Shown piece after piece: positions 14,326 to 25,884 of a DNA stretch of 32,754 nt. Under the pieces are notes generated by a model, which saw only the letters and a list, made by a program, of their open reading frames with translations, was not told the origin of the DNA and searched no databases. A program made the position numbers and the translations under genes. The DNA comes from Hyphomicrobiales bacterium (GTDB lineage Bacteria > Pseudomonadota > Alphaproteobacteria > Rhizobiales > Devosiaceae). The stretch is taken from assembly GCA_027065555.1 (NCBI GenBank), contig JAMONS010000077.1, positions 1-32,754 of the forward strand, written 5' to 3'. Position 1 is the stretch's first letter. Each line of letters opens with the position of its first letter.

Positions 14326-14904
14326 TTAGTCAGATTTTTTATCTTTTCCAAATGCTGCATTTAGACGAGAAAATTGCTCGGCAATTCCTCCTGCCGCTTC
14401 GAGAGATTTTTCTGCTTCGATTTGTATTTCCTCAACAGATTCATTTTCAAGCCTATCAAGTCTATCAAAACGAATAACTCGCTCATATAGGCGTTCGCCT
14501 TTTTCAATATAATCTAATAGTTTTGGAGGTAAATCACTCCACCCGGGTCCCGATTTATCATATGTAGATCTAAAGAATTTTATTTTCTCCTTCTCATCTA
14601 ATGCGCTTTGTGAGGTTACTTCTCCCTCCCTAACCGCTCTTTGCAACAATAACCAAGAGGCCATTTGCATCAATCTAGTAGTTAAGCGCATAGATTCGCT
14701 AGCATAGACAAAAGCTGCTTCACGATTAAGTTCACGGCTTTGTTTGCGCCCTTCCCCATCAAGATAGGCCGCAACCTCCTCAATTAATCCCATACCTTGT
14801 GAATATAGCTTATCAAAATCTTTTGACGCCAAAAGACTTGGCCCTATTGAAAGAAGGCTTGGGGCTCTTGAAATAACATCGGTTTTATTATCTTTATCGC
14901 TCAA
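14326..14904 (-). CDS. rcdA: RcdA-family (DUF1465) CtrA-degradation adaptor
   Basis: A 192-residue helical cytosolic protein of the DUF1465/RcdA family. The core YSQGMGLIEEVAAYLDGEGR followed by ESMRLTTRLMQMASWLLLQRAV is the conserved three-helix signature. In Caulobacter, RcdA bridges CpdR-primed ClpXP to substrates such as CtrA at the cell pole; the same role here is inferred from the family. The C-terminal tail (about residues 165-192) is charged and probably disordered, as in Caulobacter, where the tail binds partners. The start is the ATG at 14904. Its upstream region contains the palindromic element at 14941-15051, and the gene is flanked downstream by element A, so repeats bracket it on both sides. 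Confidence 0.85.
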   Translation of the reverse strand: MSDKDNKTDVISRAPSLLSIGPSLLASKDFDKLYSQGMGLIEEVAAYLDGEGRKQSRELNREAAFVYASESMRLTTRLMQMASWLLLQRAVREGEVTSQSALDEKEKIKFFRSTYDKSGPGWSDLPPKLLDYIEKGERLYERVIRFDRLDRLENESVEEIQIEAEKSLEAAGGIAEQFSRLNAAFGKDKKSD

Positions 14905-20559: not shown

Positions 20560-22353
20560 TTAATCCGATAAGTTTTCCAACTCATCAATCATAGCTTCAA
20601 TCATATTAAGCCCAAGCAACCAAAAATCCTTATCACTAGCGTCAAGCCCAAATGGCTTTAATAATTCTGAATGATGTTTTGAGCCGCCAGCCGCTAATAG
20701 TTCAAGATATTTTTCTGCAAAGCCTCTCGGATTTTCTTGATATTTGGCATAAAGTGAATTTACCAAACAATCGCCAAACGCATAGGCATAGACATAAAAG
20801 GGCGAATGAATAAAATGCGGAATATAAGCCCAAAAACTTTCATAGCCCTCATTTAATATAACTCCATCACCAAGACTTTCTTTTGAAACTTCAAGCCACA
20901 TTGCGTCAATTTGCTCAGCCTTTAATTCACCCTTGCGTCTGGCAGTGTGCACTTTCCTCTCAAAGCTATAAAAAGCAATTTGGCGTACCACCGTGTTGAG
21001 CATATCCTCAACTTTTTGACTTAACATAGCAAAGCGTTGTTTTTTATCTTTGGCATTTTCAAGCAAAGATTGAAAAGTCAGCATTTCACCAAACACACTT
21101 GCCGTTTCAGCCAAAGTTAGCGGTGTTGATGCCATAAGTGCGCCTTGCTTAGCGGCTAATCTTTGATGCACCCCATGCCCCAATTCATGCGCTAGCGTCA
21201 TAACATCACGAGGTTTGCCGAGATAATTTAACATGAGATATGGGTGAGCACTTGGCACGGTTGGGTGCGCAAAAGCTCCGGGAGATTTTCCCTGTTTTAC
21301 TTCAGCGTCAATCCATCCAGAATTAAAAAACGGTTTGGCTAATTCTGCCAATTCTGGCGAGAAATCACCATAGGCATCAAGCACGATTTTTGTGGCACTA
21401 TCCCAATCATAAAGTTGCTCTTCGCTGGTTGGTAAAGGTGCATTTCTATCCCACGCCTCAAGCTGTTCCTTACCAAGCCATTTCGCCTTCATCTTATAAT
21501 AGCGGTGCGAAAGACGTGGATAGGCTTGGCGCACTGCTTGCTCAAGCGCATCAACAACCTCACGCTCCACAGAATTTGCCAAATGCCGACTATCAGCAAT
21601 ATCCTCAAATTTACGCCAACGATCCGATATTTCCTTATCTTTTGCCAACACATTAGTAATATGCGTGAAAAGCCGTTGGTTATCTTTGAGTGTTTTAACA
21701 ATCGCTTCAAAACCACTTTTGCGCTTTTTCTCGCTCTTATCGGTTAAAAGATTAAGTGTTGCTTCTAAACCAAGACTTTCGCCTGCCACATCGAATTTAA
21801 GCGAAGCCATAGTTTCATCAAACAAGCGATTCCATGCAGTTCGTCCCGTTATAGATTTATCATGAAATAATTCTTCAATACGCTCTTCTAATTGATATGG
21901 TTTGCTTTTGCGCAATTCCTTAAACCAATATCTATAACGAGCTAATTCTTTATCGTTATTAAGAGCAGCCTCAAGCACGTCTTCATCTATTTGATTTAAC
22001 TCAAGCGAAAAGAAAATTAAATTAGTTGAAAGATTAGTAAGTGCCTCTTGGCAATCACCCATAAATTTAGCTCGATTTGCATCATCAGTTTTTTGCGCAT
22101 AATTAAGAAAAGCAAACGAGCCTAACCTGCCAGTTAAATCGCTCAAACTTTCATAAGATTTAAGCGCCTCAAGCAATGATCCTGCCTTAGCCAAATCCTC
22201 AAGCTTATTTTTATAGTTCCCCTCAAAACTCTTAGCGTCAGATTTTGCGCTTTCTAAATCTTGCTTAAATTGAGGACTATCAATCCCACTATATAAATCG
22301 CTTAAATCCCACTGAGGTAAATTACCAAACTGATTATTCTTTTCTTTTTGCAT
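20560..22353 (-). CDS. pepF: M3-family oligoendopeptidase (PepF-like)
   Basis: A 597-residue cytosolic zinc metallopeptidase that degrades short peptides. The zinc signature HELGH is at residues 389-393, followed by the third ligand region TLAETASVFGE. The active-site block after it (YAYAFGDCLVNSLYAKY) is complete. The length and the N-terminal helical region (PQWDLSDLYSG at the start) match the PepF/M3B group. The start is the ATG at 22353. It lies 64 bases upstream of pntAA on the same strand, so part of the pnt transcription may come from its promoter, although a TTGACA between them hints at a separate one. Confidence 0.94.
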   Translation of the reverse strand: MQKEKNNQFGNLPQWDLSDLYSGIDSPQFKQDLESAKSDAKSFEGNYKNKLEDLAKAGSLLEALKSYESLSDLTGRLGSFAFLNYAQKTDDANRAKFMGDCQEALTNLSTNLIFFSLELNQIDEDVLEAALNNDKELARYRYWFKELRKSKPYQLEERIEELFHDKSITGRTAWNRLFDETMASLKFDVAGESLGLEATLNLLTDKSEKKRKSGFEAIVKTLKDNQRLFTHITNVLAKDKEISDRWRKFEDIADSRHLANSVEREVVDALEQAVRQAYPRLSHRYYKMKAKWLGKEQLEAWDRNAPLPTSEEQLYDWDSATKIVLDAYGDFSPELAELAKPFFNSGWIDAEVKQGKSPGAFAHPTVPSAHPYLMLNYLGKPRDVMTLAHELGHGVHQRLAAKQGALMASTPLTLAETASVFGEMLTFQSLLENAKDKKQRFAMLSQKVEDMLNTVVRQIAFYSFERKVHTARRKGELKAEQIDAMWLEVSKESLGDGVILNEGYESFWAYIPHFIHSPFYVYAYAFGDCLVNSLYAKYQENPRGFAEKYLELLAAGGSKHHSELLKPFGLDASDKDFWLLGLNMIEAMIDELENLSD

Positions 22354-22476: not shown

Positions 22477-22491
22477 TTAAAACCCTGTTAA
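22477..22491. promoter_or_regulatory. Candidate CtrA box (TTAA-N7-TTAA)
   Basis: TTAA at 22477-22480 and TTAA at 22488-22491 are separated by exactly seven bases, the full CtrA consensus. It lies 83 bases before the start of the NtrC-like regulator, in the pepF/regulator intergenic region. In DNA this AT-rich a few such matches are expected by chance per 30 kb, so the position is the main argument. Confidence 0.3.
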
Positions 22492-22573
22492 GTGCCTTGA
22501 GTTACACTGCCCCAAAACGAGACATATAGATTTATAAATATTGTTGAGTAACAGGGATATTTCAGGGTAATAA

Positions 22574-24058
22574 ATGACAAAAGTTCTTATTGTAGATGAC
22601 GAACCAACTCAACTTAAGCTTACACAAAAAATGGCTGAAAAAGCAGGATTTGTTACTATTACTGCCGATAATGGCTACGAAGCCCTCTCAATTTTAAGAA
22701 CAGATAAAACCATTCGTGCAATGATATTAGATCTCGTAATGCCAAATCTTGATGGAATGGGCGTTCTTGAAACTATGCGCAAAGAAGGCATTAATGTACC
22801 AGTAATTGTGCAAACTGCTAATTCTTCAATGGAAACCATTATTACCGCTATGCGCTTTGGCGCTGTTGATTATTTTGTAAAACCCGTTGCAGTTGAGCGT
22901 ATTACAATTTCTTTGCAAAATGCTATTAAGCTTGAGCATTTAGAAAATTGCATAAGAAATGAGAGAACCCGCCGTGCTGGCACTTTCTCAACTAATGATA
23001 TTATTACAAAAAGCCCTGAAATGGTTAGAGTAATAAATCTCATTAATAAGACTGCAAAAAACTCTATTCCTATTTTAATAGAAGGGGAAACGGGAGTTGG
23101 CAAAGAGATGGTAGCACGTGCTATTCAAGGAACAGGCGATCGGCGTGGCAAGGCATTTATTAGTGTAAATTGCGGTGCAATTCCTAAAGACCAACTTGAG
23201 GCAACTCTTTTTGGTCATATCAAAGGCGCTTTCCCAAAAGCAACAACTGATCTTAAGGGTAAATTTGAACAGGCCAATGGCGGCACTATCTTTCTTGAAG
23301 AGGTTGGCGAATTGCCAAGTTCAATACAAGTAAAATTATTAAATGTCATTCAAAAAGGTGAAATTGAACCTGTTGGCTCATCAAAGACCATAAAAATCAA
23401 TGTTCGAGTAATTGCATCAACCAATAAGCGTTTGCTAAATCTCACCCAATCAGGCTCATTTCGTGAAGATCTTTTTTATTCACTTAATATTTTCCCAATT
23501 TATGTCCCCCCCCTTCGTGATAGAAAAGAAGACATCATACCATTAACCGAACATTTCATCGCTCGCTTTGGCGCTGAATCTGGTTTACGCATTCATGGCA
23601 TTTCTGAAAATACTATAAAAATGTTACAAGATTTTAATTGGCCAAACAATATTAGGCAATTAGAAAACTGCGTATTTCGGGCTTTAGTTTTGGCAGAAGG
23701 GGCTTATTTACGTCAAGTTGATTTCCCGCAAATTAACTTAAGCGCCTCCTCACGTGAGCAACTCCGCCTTGCAACAAAAGCTCAAGGGGCAAAAAATAAA
23801 CCAATTCATATTGACGATACATCACTCATCTTAGAAGAAAATGACATAATTCCTCCCATACCTGAGAGATTTTTAAGCGAAAATGGAGAAATAACTCCGC
23901 TCGCAGAACTTGAAAAACAACTAATAATTTTTGCCCTTGAAAAATATAAAGGTCACATGTCTCAAATTGCCCGTTCCTTAAAAATTGGACGTTCAACCCT
24001 TTATAGAAAACTAAAAGAATATGGGCTTGAAGAGCAGGGCGAGAAAACCGCAGCCTAA
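22574..24058 (+). CDS. NtrC-type response regulator with degenerate sigma-54 motifs
   Basis: A 494-residue protein with an intact receiver (acidic pair D8/D9, phospho-acceptor D53, T81, K103), an AAA+ domain (about residues 145-385) and a C-terminal Fis-type helix-turn-helix (HMSQIARSLKIGRSTLYRKLKEYGL). Walker A GETGVGKE (171-178) is normal. Three hallmarks are altered. The GAFTGA loop that touches sigma-54 reads GAFPKA (218-223). Walker B is FLEEV instead of FLDEI (Glu at 242). In FREDLFYSLN the usual second Arg, the proposed finger, is Ser303. It probably binds DNA in a phosphorylation-dependent way but may not remodel sigma-54 polymerase. NtrC of Rhodobacter, which lacks GAFTGA and acts with sigma-70, is a precedent. 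It leads a run of envelope genes. Confidence 0.9.
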   Translation: MTKVLIVDDEPTQLKLTQKMAEKAGFVTITADNGYEALSILRTDKTIRAMILDLVMPNLDGMGVLETMRKEGINVPVIVQTANSSMETIITAMRFGAVDYFVKPVAVERITISLQNAIKLEHLENCIRNERTRRAGTFSTNDIITKSPEMVRVINLINKTAKNSIPILIEGETGVGKEMVARAIQGTGDRRGKAFISVNCGAIPKDQLEATLFGHIKGAFPKATTDLKGKFEQANGGTIFLEEVGELPSSIQVKLLNVIQKGEIEPVGSSKTIKINVRVIASTNKRLLNLTQSGSFREDLFYSLNIFPIYVPPLRDRKEDIIPLTEHFIARFGAESGLRIHGISENTIKMLQDFNWPNNIRQLENCVFRALVLAEGAYLRQVDFPQINLSASSREQLRLATKAQGAKNKPIHIDDTSLILEENDIIPPIPERFLSENGEITPLAELEKQLIIFALEKYKGHMSQIARSLKIGRSTLYRKLKEYGLEEQGEKTAA

Positions 24059-24145
24059 TAAATTAATTCTATTTGACGCTGACTCTCTTATTTTCTAGAG
24101 ATAATTAAGCGAATCACCAAATCATTCTAAATTTTCTTTGGTAAT

Positions 24146-24191
24146 ATTTGCAGAAATAGTATTTGCGAGAGTAGTATTTGCAAGAATACTA
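24146..24191. repeat. Short AGTATTTGC repeats with inverted end
   Basis: AGTATTTGC occurs twice 17 bases apart (about 24158 and 24174) with a similar AATATTTGC just before, and the block closes with AATACTAT, the complement of the ATAGTATT at its left. It lies in the leader of the L,D-transpeptidase gene. It could be an operator for a dimeric regulator or slipped repeats; its ends resemble those of element B. Confidence 0.4.
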
Positions 24192-24237
24192 TAAACCCTT
24201 TTTGGGGGATATTAAGTGTGAGGACAGGATAGAAATA

Positions 24238-25884
24238 ATGAAATCTTTTTTAAGAATTATATTGGCAGCTAGCGTTCTGCTCACCCCAATTTCATTAAGC
24301 AATGCTCAAGAAACACTAACAATTAATGGCAAACAAGTAACTCGTGTCGTTATAGCCCCTGCCCGATCACCGATTGCAAAAATTATAAAAACTAGCCTTA
24401 GAAAGGAATATGACGCACAAAAATTTGAAAGCCGTAAATGGTATGACGCACAAAAATTATACTATTTTTATGGCGCTCGCCATTTTGAACCTCTTTGGCT
24501 AACTCAAAACGAAGCTGGCAAAACTGCTTTTTCAAACAAAGCACTAAAAATCATTGAGCTCTTTAACAACGCTCACCTAAGTGGATTAGAGCCAAAAAAC
24601 TACCTAACAGATGACATAAATCTTGAATTAATAGGCGATGATCAAACTAAACTTGCCTATGTTGAAACCGCTTTTTCTGCAGTTGCCCTAAATTATGCAC
24701 AAGATGCTTATGGCGGGCGCATAAATCCAAGAAAAGTGTCTAACAATTTTGATTATAAGCCAAATAAAATAGATAGAGCTAAACTATTATTGGATATGAT
24801 ACATTCAAACAACCCTGTAAATATATTATTGGCCCTTGAGCCAAAACATAAAGAATATATTGCGCTTAAATCAGTTCTCGCCCGCCATTATAATGGTGAT
24901 ATTAAACAAGTAGCTATTATTGCTGATGGCAAAATATTGCGGCTTGGTGATGAAGATACTCGCCTGCCCCTAATTCGCCAAAGACTTGAAATTGTTTCTG
25001 CAAATATAAATAAAAATATTTATGATGAAACTCTGCTTAGTGCGATTGAGGGTTTTCAAACTAAAATGGGACTAACCAGCGATGGCATAATAGGCCCTGC
25101 AACAATCGCCGCTTTTAATGGTGGTAACGCTGTTATGAAAGAGGACGTAATTGCCAATATGGAAATTTGGCGTTGGTTGCCACGTGATTTGGGTGATTTT
25201 AACGTATTTGTTAATATCCCAGAATATAGATTAACAATAAATAACAACGACAAAGTAACATTTTCAACAAGAGTTGTTGTTGGGCAAACCAAATTCAAAA
25301 CTCCACTATTTTCTGATGAAATTGAACATATTGTTGTTAATCCCTATTGGAACGTGCCTCGTTCAATCTTAAATAATGAACTTGCCCCCTCAATAAAATC
25401 CAACCCAAATTATCTTGCATCACAAAATATGGAGCTAGTTTCAGGTGGCAAAGTTGTAAATGATAGGAATATTGATTGGTCAACAACAAGTATGAATAAA
25501 TTTTACGTTCGCCAGCGTCCCGGCCCAAGGAATGCACTTGGGAGTGTAAAATTTCTATTTCCCAATAAACATGCAGTTTATTTACACGATACGCCTTCTA
25601 AATCCTTATTTTTCCGATCACGTCGTGCCTTTTCTCATGGTTGCGTACGGGTAAAAGATCCTTGGGATTTCGCAAAAGCACTTTTACAAATTGAGCCTAA
25701 AATTACTTATGCTTCTATTACCTCACAAAGAGGAGGCAAAAAAGAACGGTGGAACAATGTTGCCACTCATATTCCTGTTCATTTGGCATATTTCACCCTT
25801 AGAATTGATGAAAATGGGTCTGTAAGATCTTACGGTGATATCTATGGCCACAATAAACGTTTAAAGACTTTATTAGGCATATAG
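24238..25884 (+). CDS. L,D-transpeptidase with peptidoglycan-binding domain (YcbB-like)
   Basis: A 548-residue exported enzyme that would form 3-3 or related crosslinks in peptidoglycan. A signal peptide covers about residues 1-24 (cleavage after SNA). A large N-terminal scaffold region precedes a peptidoglycan-binding domain (LLSAIEGFQTKMGLTSDGIIGPATIAAFN). The YkuD catalytic domain has HDTPSKSLF and SHGCVR, with His467 and nucleophile Cys469. I use the ATG at 24238, which starts the signal peptide; an in-frame start at 24178 would add 20 hydrophilic residues ahead of it. An AGGACAGGAT purine-rich stretch precedes the start. It sits between the degenerate regulator and the DUF882 gene, all on one strand. 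Confidence 0.93.
   Translation: MKSFLRIILAASVLLTPISLSNAQETLTINGKQVTRVVIAPARSPIAKIIKTSLRKEYDAQKFESRKWYDAQKLYYFYGARHFEPLWLTQNEAGKTAFSNKALKIIELFNNAHLSGLEPKNYLTDDINLELIGDDQTKLAYVETAFSAVALNYAQDAYGGRINPRKVSNNFDYKPNKIDRAKLLLDMIHSNNPVNILLALEPKHKEYIALKSVLARHYNGDIKQVAIIADGKILRLGDEDTRLPLIRQRLEIVSANINKNIYDETLLSAIEGFQTKMGLTSDGIIGPATIAAFNGGNAVMKEDVIANMEIWRWLPRDLGDFNVFVNIPEYRLTINNNDKVTFSTRVVVGQTKFKTPLFSDEIEHIVVNPYWNVPRSILNNELAPSIKSNPNYLASQNMELVSGGKVVNDRNIDWSTTSMNKFYVRQRPGPRNALGSVKFLFPNKHAVYLHDTPSKSLFFRSRRAFSHGCVRVKDPWDFAKALLQIEPKITYASITSQRGGKKERWNNVATHIPVHLAYFTLRIDENGSVRSYGDIYGHNKRLKTLLGI

Follow-up and report, generated by a model that had tools for sequence, protein, structure and literature searches.

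A tacA-type regulator with altered sigma-54 contact and ATPase motifs, and the recurrent loss of GAFTGA among its orthologues

The gene at positions 22574-24058 (+ strand) of the window, i.e. the whole 32,754-nt stretch of DNA that was analysed, codes for a protein that is orthologous, judging from identity and gene order, to the tacA-type regulator of rhizobia. It has lost the GAFTGA motif, and so have a number of its orthologues, on repeated occasions. We consider it probable that the protein is a DNA-binding regulator driven by CtrA, controlled by phosphorylation and independent of sigma-54. What points to this, at the level of sequence, is the orthology, the loss of the motifs, the retention of the other parts, the purifying selection acting on the gene and the presence alongside of an intact sigma-54 system.

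The regulator and its place among tacA-type genes

Translation of 22574-24058 gives a protein of 494 aa, without internal stop, in which Pfam recognizes a receiver domain (PF00072, 4.7e-25; residues 4-112, 22583-22909, also delimited by alignment), an AAA+ sigma-54 activator domain (PF00158, 1.6e-60; residues 143-309, 23000-23500) and a Fis-family helix-turn-helix or HTH (PF02954; residues 443-483, 23900-24022), with IGRSTLYRKL as recognition segment; all are read from the + strand. An earlier sequence-only reading had described three deviations, and each of them was found again on alignment: GAFPKA replaces GAFTGA at residues 218-223 (23225-23242), the Walker B motif reads FLEE (residues 240-243, 23291-23302) with Glu242 for Asp, and Ser303 (23480-23482) occupies an arginine-finger position. 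When the protein is aligned with the solved NtrC1, Pro221 falls on the Thr of GAFTGA, Glu242 and Glu243 on the Asp and Glu of Walker B, and Arg297 and Ser303 on the two R-finger arginines; by alignment offset, Ser303 is the counterpart of R299, the residue named as arginine finger in NtrC1 (PMC7175178). The same reading had also rightly described the remainder as intact: D8, D9, D53, T81 and K103 of the receiver, the Walker A sequence GETGVGK and the Fis HTH are unchanged, as are the catalytic Glu243 and Arg297. The protein is without three features of functional sigma-54 activators (GAFTGA, the D-E pair of Walker B and the second finger arginine); it shows those of the sigma-54-independent activator homologues, namely no GAFTGA together with an intact receiver and HTH.

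Sharing of the changes by close homologues had been proposed as a check. With G000 designating the window genome and G001 to G004 the other genomes of its genus, the orthologue of G004, which comes from a separate assembly and is 95% identical, shows GAFPKA, Glu and Ser at the corresponding positions. Among the orthologues with an intact GAFTGA, 167 out of 167 have the Walker B D-E pair and both arginines. The motif changes are thus more than chance or error.

A regulator orthologue is present in 56 of the 61 genomes searched, and also in Sinorhizobium, with synteny holding where it was checked; most genomes of the host family and order have one strong tacA-type orthologue each. The named relatives, 46-48% identical, lie on Sinorhizobium and Methylobacterium replicons, and the rhizobial gene combines 46% identity with a matching gene order. 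In Sinorhizobium, a divergent M3 oligopeptidase gene adjoins the locus, a DUF882 gene lies downstream and DUF1036 and pyruvate kinase genes are found beyond. The order in the window is the same (the M3 oligopeptidase gene, identified by Pfam, is at 20560-22353 on the - strand, in the place it has in relatives and in Sinorhizobium), as it is in relatives, whether their motifs are intact or broken; this speaks for the broken copies being orthologues and not paralogues. The Sinorhizobium locus matched here is, judging from its position, presumably SMc04011. In S. meliloti, SMc04011 carries the name tacA (PMC11387232). A second tacA-like copy was not found, and a second, intact copy was consequently rejected as an explanation of the losses.

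The downstream neighbour is an L,D-transpeptidase gene (24178-25884, + strand; Pfam YkuD) with TTG as its listed start. The gap before it contains three near-repeats of TAGTATTTGC (24142-24192); because the TTG at 24178 falls inside these repeats, translation probably begins at the ATG at 24238 instead. Unlike the window, G004 has tacA and the DUF882 gene with no L,D-transpeptidase gene in between (L317, G004:C122, 5480-5760).

Recurrence and order of the losses

We extracted 129 orthologues from the host family and 73 from other families. With T-to-S in GAFTGA counted as intact, the motif was broken in 24 of 128 host-family genes and in 5 of the 73 outside ones, a set partly picked for low scores and whose loss rate is for that reason no fair sample; orthologues of the order are for the most part canonical. 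One of the 24 host-family losers, with GAFTGS, may still be functional. When the loop columns were left out of tree building, the losses formed 13 clades, 11 of them in the host family, and Fitch parsimony gave 13 as well, a count that could be exceeded by the true one, given that four long-branched losers cluster, possibly by mutual attraction, or be reduced by weakly supported nodes. In the genus of the window all five genomes are broken, and in various ways (GAFPKA twice, GAFVGA, GAFNNA and GANNNI). That such an event recurs in a cell-cycle regulator had escaped the earlier reading.

The earlier reading spoke of three linked losses. The linkage holds in one direction: Walker B was abnormal in 14 of the 29 proteins with a broken loop, while all 167 with an intact loop had a normal one (Fisher p about 9e-14, only indicative since the sequences are related and relatedness was not corrected for), and substitution or absence of finger arginines was seen in 4 of the first group and in none of the second. 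Of the 29 GAFTGA losers, 15 retain a normal Walker B. The existence of such losers, and of no intact-loop protein with an abnormal Walker B, indicates that sigma-54 contact seems to have gone first and the ATPase parts later; the losses look stepwise rather than simultaneous. The genus of the window contains both states, G002 and G003 having kept D-E and both arginines whereas G000, G004 and G001 have lost them.

The presence of rpoN had been suggested as another check, and the gene was indeed found in 58 of 61 genomes, that of the window included. Two other activators, NtrC and FlbD, were looked for in 30 genomes, 23 of which have a broken TacA: each was found 29 times, and in all 29 NtrC and all 29 FlbD proteins GAFTGA, D-E and both finger arginines are intact. 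In the window genome, where rpoN is present and both NtrC and FlbD keep GAFTGA, sigma-54 was therefore neither lost nor altered in its contact. Loss of sigma-54 as the cause was rejected on the rpoN count, and a general drift of activators on the canonical NtrC and FlbD controls. Exact sigma-54 promoter-like sites were few per genome in the promoter scan, with 5 in G000 and, at the threshold used, no hit inside the window.

Two further proteins of the window genome lack the motif. NtrX (L003, which passes the NtrX cut-off) resembles the regulator in its receiver-AAA+-HTH architecture without GAFTGA, the two being about 27% identical; Caulobacter NtrX is also without the motif (PMC10274813), so that the NtrX loss is probably older and fixed. 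The other (L004, G000:C86:29160-30245), a response regulator with AAA+ and a Fis-type HTH that passes no NCBIfam cut-off, has no GAFTGA loop (MFG, a gap, then VKGKSN).

Constraint, promoter and C-terminal tail

All 28 loop-broken orthologues that extend as far as the recognition segment have IGRSTLYRKL without change, and among the 29 GAFTGA losers, 24 retain every member of the receiver quintet. One distant loser (L145, from genome G032) has the receiver residues replaced (S8 H9 Q53 G81 R103), with the HTH, the CtrA-type box and the Ala-Ala tail retained. Between G000 and G004, omega was 0.07 for the receiver, 0.09 for AAA+ and 0 for the HTH, i.e. about 0.08 overall, and other broken pairs gave similar values. 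Loss clades comprising several species, for instance three g6 genomes, have open and constrained frames. To compare rates, branch lengths were refitted per domain: the AAA+/HTH rate ratio was 2.77 on loss branches (bootstrap 2.1-3.7) versus 1.19 on the others (1.0-1.4), while for the AAA+/receiver ratio the two kinds of branches overlap. As far as these comparisons tell, the protein is constrained as a whole with a relaxation of AAA+, which is neither pseudogenisation nor proof of positive selection. The acceleration of AAA+ resembles what would follow if one output of the protein had come under weaker constraint while its remaining functions were still required; it is as compatible with such relaxation as with a new mechanism. 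As to the selected change of mechanism that had been suggested, purifying selection on the gene continues; selection for the change itself is not claimed here, because AAA+ evolves on the loss branches as if under relaxed constraint.

A CtrA-type box, TTAA-N7-TTAA (TTAAAACCCTGTTAA; 22477-22491, + strand), lies 97 bp upstream of the start codon. Such a box was present within 300 bp upstream of each of the 125 host-family genes tested, the 24 with a broken GAFTGA among them, against an expectation from shuffles of less than 1 in total over the 125, and upstream of 4 of 32 genes of other families. The tacA gene of Caulobacter is a direct CtrA target (PMC7010744). The genes for CtrA, GcrA and RcdA are all in the window genome. 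Downstream of the box, perhaps near the transcription start, the family alignment revealed a conserved block (CCAAAACGAGACA; 22512-22524, + strand), the core positions of which mostly reach 1.2-1.9 bits over 129 host-family members. This 13-bp block, like CCAAAACGRCACA, is strongly conserved near the tacA start in the host family, and the pattern CCAAAACGNNACA occurs once in the window genome. As a lead only, it could be a candidate binding site for the regulator itself. A dyad operator, TGC-N11-GCA (NtrC-like), was tried in the promoter block; it fits some genera and fails in g15, and it too is kept as a lead only. In 124 of 129 host-family promoters the CtrA box is followed by a GANTC site. 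This CcrM site is absent from G000 (window 22517-22556), G004 and G001, where GcrA is still present; these three form the clade without the Walker B Asp and finger Arg.

At the other end of the gene, the protein terminates in Ala-Ala (24050-24055, + strand), a candidate degron of the ClpXP type. The C-terminus was AA or VA in 125 of 125 host-family proteins tested and mixed in other families. In Caulobacter, TacA is degraded by ClpXP via a C-terminal Ala-Gly (PMC7010744), with the participation of CpdR and RcdA (PMC7010744, PMC8973945). The window has an RcdA-type gene, a candidate ClpXP adaptor for the regulator (14326-14904, - strand; PF07323 (DUF1465), G000:C77:14350-14835, 1.3e-51), which is 8 kb from tacA, the gene of its likely substrate.

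Mode of action, alternatives and comparison with known systems

The motifs were lost repeatedly and nearly all else was kept, so the regulator probably controls genes in another way than by activating sigma-54. In the scheme we favour, CtrA would switch the tacA-type gene on, the receiver would be phosphorylated, and the Ala-Ala tail would serve degradation by ClpXP and RcdA; synthesis and destruction of the protein apparently follow the cell cycle. The protein is expected to bind DNA via its unchanged Fis HTH; as predicted from its motifs, it could no longer couple ATP hydrolysis to the opening of sigma-54 polymerase. It would most likely act at sigma-70-type promoters, repressing or activating them under the control of phosphorylation. 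The proposal, already made in the sequence-only reading, of a phosphorylation-controlled DNA-binding protein acting without sigma-54 is in large part supported by the lost motifs and the retained receiver and HTH, the mechanism itself being what we infer from them. A wider proposal, which we advance tentatively and hold to be somewhat short of probable, is that the TacA-type regulators of this order have a sigma-54-independent job under selection, that the sigma-54 output was shed about 12 times with cell-cycle control retained, and that the outcome is a converted, phospho-switched TacA within the CtrA circuit, possibly repressing itself via 22512-22524.

Two alternatives keep the protein tied to sigma-54. 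It might be a brake on sigma-54 promoters, operating through old enhancer sites or through mixed hexamers with other activators; the unchanged HTH and receiver, and the presence of rpoN with canonical NtrC and FlbD, would suit this role. The scarcity of exact sigma-54 promoter-like sites in G000, and their absence from the window at the scan threshold, do not, and the gradual loss of AAA+ residues speaks against a conserved ring partner, which makes a brake unlikely. Against the scheme favoured here, HTH mutants of Caulobacter NtrC, itself without GAFTGA, are reported to raise some sigma-54-dependent transcripts (mBio 2025, PMC12421884), and loss of the motif may thus not exclude every link to sigma-54. 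Somewhat less likely than a brake is a GAFPKA loop that remains active on sigma-54 while the ATPase is weakened. In its favour, Walker A is retained together with the catalytic Glu243 and Arg297, and the Walker B mutant E108Q of PspF can still remodel with little hydrolysis (PMC4132715); but in most cases activity is abolished when the central F or T is replaced (PMC3162934), the loop was lost outright in relatives, and the other activators of the same genomes retain GAFTGA, which means that sigma-54 has not adapted to another loop.

The remaining alternatives are decay of the gene and error. That the gene is in early decay could be read from the loss of several motifs, the faster AAA+ relative to the HTH on loss branches, the missing GANTC site in the promoters of G000, G004 and G001, and the receiver of G032. 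Yet the frame is open, omega against G004 is 0.07-0.09 with 0 for the HTH, the promoter box and the C-terminus are retained in every host-family loser, and the multi-species loss clades such as that of the three g6 genomes are still open and constrained. The open frame, the retained parts and the ongoing purifying selection indicate that the regulator is no pseudogene, in line with the absence of frame damage noted earlier, and we regard early decay as improbable. As to a sequencing or assembly error, the window assembly is a fragmented, metagenome-assembled one (2.06 Mb in 139 contigs), but the identical three changes in the assembly of G004 lead us to reject an artefact, the chance of which is negligible.

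Individual activators without GAFTGA are already known: in 2011, about 110 cases deviating from GAFTGA were noted, with Pro favoured at position four (PMC3162934). What is new here is the recurrence, the TacA-specificity and the order of the losses. A literature search that took in few subscription papers gave no earlier description of GAFTGA loss in TacA orthologues, or of a repeated TacA-specific loss. A single orthologous group offers about 12 losses, apparently of GAFTGA first and of ATPase residues after, in cells whose sister activators are canonical. It provides matched intact and converted pairs for studying the passage from sigma-54 activator to sigma-54-independent regulator, and these pairs also bear on the roles of TacA beyond sigma-54 gene activation. 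A word of caution follows for annotation: domain hits alone are insufficient to call such genes sigma-54-dependent.

To our knowledge, HupR, TyrR, DhaR and VpsR are not orthologous to the regulator and stand outside the CtrA cell-cycle circuit. They resemble it as activator homologues without a working GAFTGA, and TyrR, DhaR and HupR are sigma-70 dependent (PMC3162934). Closer in kind are the NtrC proteins of Caulobacter and Rhodobacter capsulatus, alphaproteobacterial response regulators which, like the regulator, are without GAFTGA, and which act at sigma-70 promoters (PMC10274813). They belong, however, to a different orthologous group, of which the member in the window genome retains GAFTGA, and their loops bear deletions, whereas the window regulator has substitutions together with the Walker B and finger changes. 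The nearest systems are the TacA proteins. The tacA gene of Sinorhizobium meliloti (SMc04011) has the receiver-AAA+-Fis architecture and the gene order of the window regulator, and TacA of Caulobacter and Sinorhizobium shares with it the CtrA-type promoter box, the Ala-rich C-terminal tail and the presence of RcdA in the genome. Caulobacter TacA, to which we liken the regulator from its published description, possesses GAFTGA, and sigma-54-dependent genes such as staR are under its control (PMC10274813); the window regulator differs from it in having neither GAFTGA nor the Walker B Asp, and in lacking a finger arginine.
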